DNA of 53,080 bases from Candidatus Aerophobota bacterium. Lineage in GTDB: Bacteria; Aerophobota; Aerophobia; Aerophobales; JAGGVN01. The notes under the pieces are model-generated. The model searched no databases. It worked only from the letters and a program-made list of their open reading frames with translations, and had not been told where the DNA came from. The position numbers and the translations under genes are program-made. Numbering within the stretch: the stretch's first letter is position 1; the number at the start of each line of letters is the position of its first letter. The stretch is from assembly GCA_021158005.1 (NCBI GenBank), contig JAGGVN010000096.1, forward strand, positions 1 to 53,080. Direction: 5' to 3'. Shown piece by piece: positions 4,630-7,418 of this stretch.

Positions 4630-6360
4630 ATGATAAAGTATAGCAAATGGATAATGCTCTTCATTATAGGACTGATAGTTTTATCTATCTGGACTGTCTA
4701 TCCTCCTCAAGAGAAGATAAAATTGGGTTTAGATTTAAAAGGAGGAACCCACCTTGTATTGGAAGCAGATCTTACTAAGCTTCCCCCGGGAGAAAGTCTT
4801 GAAGAAGTAGTCACTACTGCCATAGAAACTATCCGTAATCGCGTCGATGCGCTGGGCCTGAAAGAGCCTACCATTACCCGTCAAGGAAAAAAGAGAATAA
4901 TTGTAGATATTGCTGCTCATTCTTTAGATTTTAAGCTGCTGAGTGAAGAGCAAAATAATATAGAGGAAATCTTGAAAACAGGGAAAATTCCTCCGGATAC
5001 CGAACTCCTTTATGATGAAAAAGGAAATCCTTATCTGGTGGAGAAAGAAATTCTCCTATCAGGAAGCAGGGTAAAAGATGCTCGAGTAGAGATAGGAAGT
5101 AATAATAAACCTTATCTTCTTTTATTTCTCGATTCGGAAGGAGCCGATATTTTTGCTCGTTTAGCCAGTAAATATGGAGGGAGAAAATTAGCTATAATTT
5201 TTGATAATGTTGTAAAATGCACTCCCATAATAAAAAATCGGAGAGAGGAGAGAGAATCACCCGAAGATATCTTTATAAAAGTCTCTTCCCCCAAAGAGAA
5301 TCTAATTATGGAAGGAGATTTTACTTCTCAAGAAGCTTCGAACCTGCAGAGCGTTCTTAAGAGTGGAACAAGCCCGGTGGATATAATTAAACAAATGGCT
5401 CTATTGGAATTCAAATTAGTAGATGAGAAAGGAGATATAAGTAAAGCTCTTAAAGGGGAAATTCCTCCTCAAGACCAGGTACTCTACGATTTGGAGGGAA
5501 GGGCTTATTTACTTAAAAAAGAGACTCTTCTTACCGGTAAGAGTATTACTGATGTTCGTGTTCAGATAAATCAATGGGGACAGCCTTATATAGCTTTAAC
5601 TCTGGATAAAGAAGGAGCTAAAAAATTTGCGGAAATTACGGGAACACATGTAGGAGAAAGATTGGCTATAATTTTAGATAATGTAGTTAAATCTGCTCCG
5701 GTGATAAAAACCCGTATCCCTGATGGAAAAGCTGTTATTGAGGGAAACTTTGACATAGAAAGTGCAAATAAATTGAGAATTGTCTTAAAGAGCGGCGCTT
5801 TACCTGTTCCTTTTGAGATTATTCAAAATACGACTGTAGGCCCTTCTTTAGGACGAGACTCTATCCAGAAGGGATTTTTTGCAGGTATTATTGGTTTAAT
5901 AGTGGTAATTATCTTTATGGGGATTTACTATAAGAAAGCGGGGATTATTGCTGATATCGCCCTTATTCTAAACCTACTCTTCTTGATGGCAATCTTGGTG
6001 GCACTCAAAGCTACCCTTACTCTGCCAGGAATTGCCGGAATTATTCTCACTATCGGGATGAGTATCGATGCTAATGTTATTATCTTTGAAAGAATAAGAG
6101 AAGAAATAAAGGCAGAGAGGGCTCCTCGTCCGGCAGTCGATGCCGGATATAATAGAGCTCTAACTACTATTCTGGATGCAAACATTACTACCTTAATTGT
6201 TGCTTTGGTTCTCTTTCAATTTGGGACCGGTCCTATAAAAGGATTTGCCACTACTCTTTCCATAGGGATTTTAGCCAGTATGTTTACGGCTATTATAGTT
6301 ACCCGAGTTATCTTTAACCTTCTCTTAGAAAAAAGACCACTAAAGAAATTGAGTATTTAA
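4630..6360 (+). CDS. secD: Protein translocase subunit SecD with duplicated periplasmic head region
   Basis: SecD uses the proton gradient with SecF to pull preproteins through SecYEG on the outer face of the membrane. The protein has 576 residues: TM1 at about 8-25, the P1 base GLDLKGGTHLVLE (33-45) with the VDALGLKEPTI strand, then a periplasmic region, and five C-terminal TMs from about residue 414. The periplasmic region appears twice in tandem. Copy 1 is about 98-250 and copy 2 about 258-393; each has an FKL start, GxIPP, LYD, YL..KE.LL.G, LD.EGA, LAII.DNVVK and LKSG. Family members normally carry one copy. A leading GGGAG fits the ATG. secF follows after 11 nt. Confidence 0.96.
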   Translation: MIKYSKWIMLFIIGLIVLSIWTVYPPQEKIKLGLDLKGGTHLVLEADLTKLPPGESLEEVVTTAIETIRNRVDALGLKEPTITRQGKKRIIVDIAAHSLDFKLLSEEQNNIEEILKTGKIPPDTELLYDEKGNPYLVEKEILLSGSRVKDARVEIGSNNKPYLLLFLDSEGADIFARLASKYGGRKLAIIFDNVVKCTPIIKNRREERESPEDIFIKVSSPKENLIMEGDFTSQEASNLQSVLKSGTSPVDIIKQMALLEFKLVDEKGDISKALKGEIPPQDQVLYDLEGRAYLLKKETLLTGKSITDVRVQINQWGQPYIALTLDKEGAKKFAEITGTHVGERLAIILDNVVKSAPVIKTRIPDGKAVIEGNFDIESANKLRIVLKSGALPVPFEIIQNTTVGPSLGRDSIQKGFFAGIIGLIVVIIFMGIYYKKAGIIADIALILNLLFLMAILVALKATLTLPGIAGIILTIGMSIDANVIIFERIREEIKAERAPRPAVDAGYNRALTTILDANITTLIVALVLFQFGTGPIKGFATTLSIGILASMFTAIIVTRVIFNLLLEKRPLKKLSI

Positions 6361-6371
6361 GGGAGAGATAA

Positions 6372-7418
6372 ATGCGCTTATTCAAAGAAACACATATAGA
6401 TTTCATTAAATTAAGGAAGATTGCTTTTGTTGTCTCGGGAGTATTAGTAACTTTAAGTATTGTTTCTCTTTTTATAAAAGGAGGACCAAAACTTGGACTG
6501 GACTTCACCGGGGGGGTAGAAATTCATCTTAAGTTTACCAGACCCCCTTCTATAAGTCGAATAAGAACTGCTCTATCTAAAATAGGCTTAGGGGAAGCAG
6601 TAATTCAGCAATATGGACAAAAGAAAGATAACCTCATTCTTGTGAGGTTGGGAGTAGAAAAAACTTCTTCAGAATTTGCTTCAGAAATATCCCCTAAAGT
6701 TGAACAAGCTATAAGAGGAGAATTTAAAGATGAAGAGAATGAATTTGTTATTCTTAGCTCAGAGTTAATTGGACCTAAGGTTGGTAAAGAGATCCAACAA
6801 AAAGCTATAATAGCTCTCAGTATTAGCTTTATAGGAATGCTCATTTATATTGCTCTGCGTTTTGAGCTAAGATTTGCTGTAGGAGCCATAGTTGCCTTAT
6901 GCCATGATGTCTTCATCGCTGTTGGAGCTTTATCCATAGGTAACTTTGAATTTAATTTACCAATAGTGGCTGCTTTACTCACCATAATAGGATACTCTTT
7001 AAACGACACTATTGTTATTTATGACCGAATAAGAGAAAATCTTAAAATCTACCGAAAAAAAGCAGGTTCACTCAAAGATATACTTAATTCGAGCATTAAC
7101 CAATCACTTTCAAGGACTATTATTACTTCTTTAACCACTTTTGTGGTGGTTCTGGCTTTATTTTTATGGGGAGGAGAAGTCCTTCATGGATTTGCTTTTG
7201 CTCTCCTTATAGGAGTAATAGTAGGCACATATTCATCATCCTTTGTAGCTACTCCTGTAGTCTATGGATGGGAAAGAAAGACTGAAGTGGAAAAGATTCA
7301 AGTGATGAGGAAAAGAACTAAGATAATTAAAAAACCCGTTGTTTCTGCCGCAAAAAAAGATAAACCAAAGAGTAAAGTCTCCAGAAAGAGAAAGAGTAGA
7401 AAAAAGAAAAAAAGATGA
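6372..7418 (+). CDS. secF: Protein translocase subunit SecF with polybasic C-terminal tail
   Basis: SecF is the six-TM partner of SecD in the proton-driven export motor. The protein has 348 residues. The first TM is near 15-33, followed by the family motif GLDFTGG (38-44), a small periplasmic domain, and the C-terminal TM bundle containing TIIGYSLNDTIVIYDRIRE-like sequence. After the last TM, the cytoplasmic tail (about residues 312-348) is strongly basic and ends RKRKSRKKKKR. Such a tail is not a standard SecF feature and resembles ribosome-contacting tails of some membrane insertases, though that function is only inferred. The stop overlaps the murG ATG by 4 nt, so export and wall synthesis genes are translationally linked here. 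Confidence 0.96.
   Translation: MRLFKETHIDFIKLRKIAFVVSGVLVTLSIVSLFIKGGPKLGLDFTGGVEIHLKFTRPPSISRIRTALSKIGLGEAVIQQYGQKKDNLILVRLGVEKTSSEFASEISPKVEQAIRGEFKDEENEFVILSSELIGPKVGKEIQQKAIIALSISFIGMLIYIALRFELRFAVGAIVALCHDVFIAVGALSIGNFEFNLPIVAALLTIIGYSLNDTIVIYDRIRENLKIYRKKAGSLKDILNSSINQSLSRTIITSLTTFVVVLALFLWGGEVLHGFAFALLIGVIVGTYSSSFVATPVVYGWERKTEVEKIQVMRKRTKIIKKPVVSAAKKDKPKSKVSRKRKSRKKKKR

Follow-up and report, generated by a model that had tools for sequence, protein, structure and literature searches.

A SecD protein of the Aerophobetes in which the periplasmic P1 head is present twice

The secD gene of an Aerophobetes genome encodes the P1 head twice, each time with the base strand that precedes it and the base helix that follows it. 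This gene lies in the 53,080-nucleotide stretch of DNA that was analysed as a whole and is called the window here. The gene is an intact open reading frame of 576 aa (4630-6360, + strand), and its product is the sole SecD found in the source genome, which is 92.5% complete. It matches the SecD family model TIGR01129 with 494 bits (cut-off 244), and because this family score is retained despite the two heads, we file the protein as a SecD variant. Instead of the single P1 head that is usual for the family, and that TIGR01129 does not itself demand, the frame contains two matches to PF22599 (SecDF_P1_head), of about 69 bits for head 1 and about 118 bits for head 2, both above the cut-off of 27 bits. 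The doubling is evident from sequence, from family matches and from predicted fold. Its probable explanation is one tandem duplication within the lineage, with copy 2 serving as the working head and copy 1 as an auxiliary head.

Compared with itself, the protein gives an alignment of residues 99-250 and 259-392 that spans 152 aa, with 42% of residues identical and 60% similar (E=3e-37). The Smith-Waterman score of copy 1 against copy 2 is 282, whereas 1000 shuffles average 30 and reach 54 at most, which rules out chance similarity; as a control, the N-terminal part and the head of 18 single-head SecD proteins score only 23-46 against each other. The first-pass annotation had proposed a tandem duplication of the SecD periplasmic head at 4920-5810, and the self-comparison and the two PF22599 matches confirm it, with the span right to within a few bases (Table 1) and with the motifs FKL, GxIPP, LYD, KE.LL.G, EGA, LAII.DNVVK and LKSG found in both copies in the same order.

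Table 1. Features of the secD locus, with residues of SecD and positions in the window.
Feature	Residues	Window positions (strand)	Basis
N-terminal half of the P1 base: GLDLKGG motif, first helix, strands 2 and 3	30-96	4717..4917 (+)	PF07549, PF21760, model
Repeat copy 1: base strand, head 1, base helix	97-250	4918..5379 (+)	self-comparison, alignment gap, model
Head 1	125-247	5002..5370 (+)	PF22599
Extra loop inside head 1	~204-222	5239..5295 (+)	head alignment, pLDDT
Junction between copies: TSPV-DIIKQMA stands where single-head SecD has base helix 2 (...AIDIIGKTA)		5368..5400 (+)	alignment with relatives
Repeat copy 2 (orthologous copy)	256-395	5395..5814 (+)	identity to relatives' head, head alignment
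Head 2	284-393	5479..5808 (+)	PF22599
Transmembrane part with conserved motor motif SIDANVIIFERI	397-576	5818..6357 (+)	PF02355 SecD_SecF_C
secF, ordinary, directly downstream of secD		6372..7418 (+)	TIGR00966, 318 bits (cut-off 160)

The repeat unit consists of a head, the preceding base strand (LDFKLL / LLEFKLV) and the following base helix (ASNLQSVLKSG / ANKLRIVLKSG); the division of individual strands and helices between head and base follows published SecDF structures. When the protein is aligned with 18 single-head SecD proteins, copy 1 stands out as a single, clean insertion, about 140 residues long, that separates base strand 3 (RIIVDIAA) from base helix 2 (DIIKQMALLEF), the latter corresponding to xDIIGKTALLEF in the relatives. 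Base helix 2 precedes copy 2 only, copy 1 having lost its own copy of the helix. On the N-terminal side of the repeats, PF07549 (Sec_GG) matches residues 30-47 and PF21760 (SecD_1st) residues 62-95, and on the C-terminal side the membrane part carries the motif DANVxIxERI, with D480, N482, E487 and R488 invariant in the alignment with relatives. SecD is paired with a SecF, the C-terminal tail of which is strongly basic over about 40 Lys/Arg-rich residues (window 7290-7418).

An AlphaFold2 model of SecD (pLDDT 77, pTM 0.54), in which the mutual placement of the heads is poorly predicted, gives an identical order of strands and helices in copy 1 (E99-104 H106-117 E124-129 E134-144 E148-155 E161-167 H169-182 E186-191) and copy 2 (E259-264 H270-274 E282-287 E292-302 E306-313 E319-325 H327-339 E344-349). 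When modelled by itself from aligned head sequences, copy 1 is predicted to adopt the head fold (pLDDT 84, pTM 0.80), and this model matches nine PDB chains at E<=0.001, all of them SecDF, with TM-scores of 0.52-0.60 normalised to the query. By this predicted fold and by a score above the curated cut-off, copy 1 belongs to the PF22599 heads. The first-pass annotation had named a repeat that is not a head domain as grounds for giving up its claim, and the predicted fold and SecDF matches of copy 1 speak for a head. The extra loop in head 1 is 13-15 residues longer than in any other aligned head and is of low confidence, with pLDDT <50 at residues 205-216 and 218-224.

Three parts of the protein are close to the SecD of Aerophobetes relatives, namely the N-terminal part (54-67% identical), copy 2 (57-75%, measured against the one head that the relatives have) and the transmembrane part (77-83% identical), while copy 1 reaches only 38-47% in this comparison. 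Judged from sequence, copy 2 is the original, orthologous copy and copy 1 the derived one. In a tree of heads, copy 1 has a long branch, of 1.37 changes per column, within the group of Aerophobetes heads (node 100/99); this group also includes one genome from outside, G053, in the sister phylum of which both of two genomes are single-headed. Neither the sisterhood of copy 1 and copy 2 (p-AU 0.09) nor a placement of copy 1 outside the other Aerophobetes heads (p-AU 0.155) is rejected, and the event is therefore undated by the tree alone. The copies share no exact DNA match longer than 11 bases, so that synonymous change between them is taken as saturated and silent changes give no date for the duplication. 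The simplest reading, which we infer from the relatives, would be a single duplication in the source lineage followed by rapid change of copy 1. The two crossover sites, PFEIIQNT behind the head and xIDIIGKT in front of it, resemble each other, which may point to an unequal exchange there.

It is improbable that copy 1, instead of being copied from copy 2, entered the gene by recombination from elsewhere, for instance from another SecD or from a P1-head protein that stands alone. Copy 1 is 42-47% identical to copy 2, no closer than to other Aerophobetes heads (38-53%), and stand-alone head proteins do exist in an Aerophobetes relative, as would suit such an origin; however, copy 1 falls within the Aerophobetes group of the head tree, and the boundaries of the unit match those of a tandem copy. 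The stand-alone protein of the relative (L041, G004:C28) has 281 aa, a signal-like N-terminus and a P1-head match of 71 bits, without the SecD membrane part. It is far more distant, at 28-29% identity to copy 2 over 76-91 aa and with no hit to copy 1, and is rejected as the donor for this reason. In three genomes of two families, at G329:C10:120527-122463, G136:C61:7793-9197 and G273:C60:2968-4289, the SecD-like frame has another P1-head frame about 1 kb away on the same strand, and these adjoining frames are possibly neighbouring head proteins or split genes. One Aerophobetes genome has a second SecD of a different type (L009/L046, G001:C76), 524 aa long, on a 4-kb contig, which groups with other phyla in the head tree and may be contamination or a second SecDF.

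To place the doubling among other bacteria, we draw on a survey of 386 genomes, 376 of which have a PF22599 match, a family model that a strongly diverged second head could escape. Among the approximately 375 other genomes with a match, no second SecD has two recognised heads in one open frame. More than one head match occurs in 21 of these genomes, always in separate open frames or on separate contigs, the placement having been checked for all 21 (G001, G004, G009, G012 and the other 17). Of 17 Aerophobetes genomes, 15 give a match to copy 1, and all of these except the source genome have a single-head SecD, complete or partial. A peptide-pattern scan of about 85,000 genomes, with two peptides from copy 1 among the patterns, yielded 8 loci, none with a two-headed SecD; the scan reaches close relatives only and may omit the source genome itself. 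A common two-headed architecture, which the first-pass annotation had named as fatal to its reading, is rejected by the survey, and the annotation's statement that single-copy SecD is the norm is upheld, with no second case. A literature search, with most subscription journals outside its reach, found no paper describing a doubled P1 head.

The same distribution bears on the age of the event. An ancient duplication in the Aerophobetes, since lost in all other families, would be consistent with the rough equidistance of copy 1 from all Aerophobetes heads and with the unrejected placement outside them, but the second head would then have to have disappeared from all other families of the order, f2-f7 being single-headed throughout, and the distance of copy 1 is explained by its long branch; we regard it as highly improbable. 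Another rival is an assembly artefact joining two secD genes. In its favour, the whole case comes from one metagenome-assembled draft, fragmented into 165 contigs, no second assembly was found, and the contig scan returned no other two-headed secD. Assembly error is nevertheless unlikely, to the point that we assign it an almost negligible probability: the copies share no exact match over 11 bases and so give an assembler nothing to overlap, the reading frame is preserved, the flanks on either side of the copies are those of an Aerophobetes SecD, copy 1 is too unlike any single-head SecD to be a neighbour's gene, and its GC content of 0.37 is that of the gene and equals that of the window (0.37).

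Whether copy 1 is under constraint can be judged in part from the residues that it has kept. It retains 45 of 66 positions (68%) conserved in >=80% of other heads, compared with 29 of 74 less conserved positions, although part of this difference is to be expected, given how uncertain the ancestral residue is where positions vary. It also retains 26 of 38 nearly invariant head positions and 19 of the 28 that are invariant in all other aligned heads. This pattern of retention favours constraint on copy 1, as far as the sequence can indicate; its open frame is not evidence of function, since any stop codon in copy 1 would cost the protein its membrane part as well. A somewhat unlikely alternative is that copy 1 is a tolerated leftover of the duplication, which folds and has no role in export, drifting within the limits set by folding and frame. 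The long branch of copy 1, the change of 9 of the 28 invariant positions, the altered motifs (SAP to CTP, KSGALP to KSGTSP), the new low-confidence loop and the retention of such a copy in no relative would all fit this alternative. Against it stand the preferential retention of conserved over variable positions and the mildness of several of the losses (R to K, V to I, I to V, L to F).

The P1 head of known SecDF carries the substrate-binding pocket and moves with ion flow, pulling the chain (PMC7793623, PMC9508474, PMC11470409), and in E. coli the periplasmic chaperone PpiD contacts this head (PMC7793623). Under the reading that we prefer, the doubling of the P1 head with its preceding base strand and following base helix arose by a single internal tandem duplication in this Aerophobetes lineage. 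Copy 2 has held the original position, connected to the base and the membrane motor, and is most likely the working head; by analogy with known SecDF, it most likely grips the chain leaving SecYEG and swings with ion flow. Copy 1, inserted in the loop from base strand 3 to base helix 2, has lost its copy of the helix and diverged fast, and is most likely an auxiliary domain beside copy 2, probably a head riding on the P1 base. There it may offer the exported chain a further point of grip, or serve as a docking site for a partner, for example a periplasmic chaperone. An unlikely extension is that both heads of the motor bind the exported chain, one holding while the other moves, or together giving a longer or more processive grip than single-head SecDF has.

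Most bacteria possess SecDF, and the way in which a single P1 head pulls a chain is under debate. With two heads on the same base, the natural variant described here lends itself to testing whether the head is a gripping element whose number matters, and it shows that a second head can be accommodated by the P1 base in the loop from strand 3 to helix 2.

This SecD shares with known SecDF (TIGR01129; PF21760, PF22599, PF02355; 3AQP, 3AQO, 5XAN, 5YHF) the usual order of domains, a secF directly after secD and the motor motif, but the matched structures have one head, whereas here the head and its flanking strand and helix occur twice. Longer SecD proteins with an enlarged P1 (e.g. L003, L004, L038 and L009; 510-530 aa) also have additional sequence in P1; in contrast to copy 1, this additional stretch precedes the first base helix and is no head copy, the part before the head scoring only 24-28 against the head. 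The single-head SecD of other Aerophobetes resembles this one in the N-terminal part, copy 2 and the transmembrane part alike, yet none of these proteins, which have about 430-455 aa (429-436 aa when counted from the first Met used) compared with 576 aa here, has copy 1, and all 18 aligned relatives show a clean gap of about 140 columns in its place.
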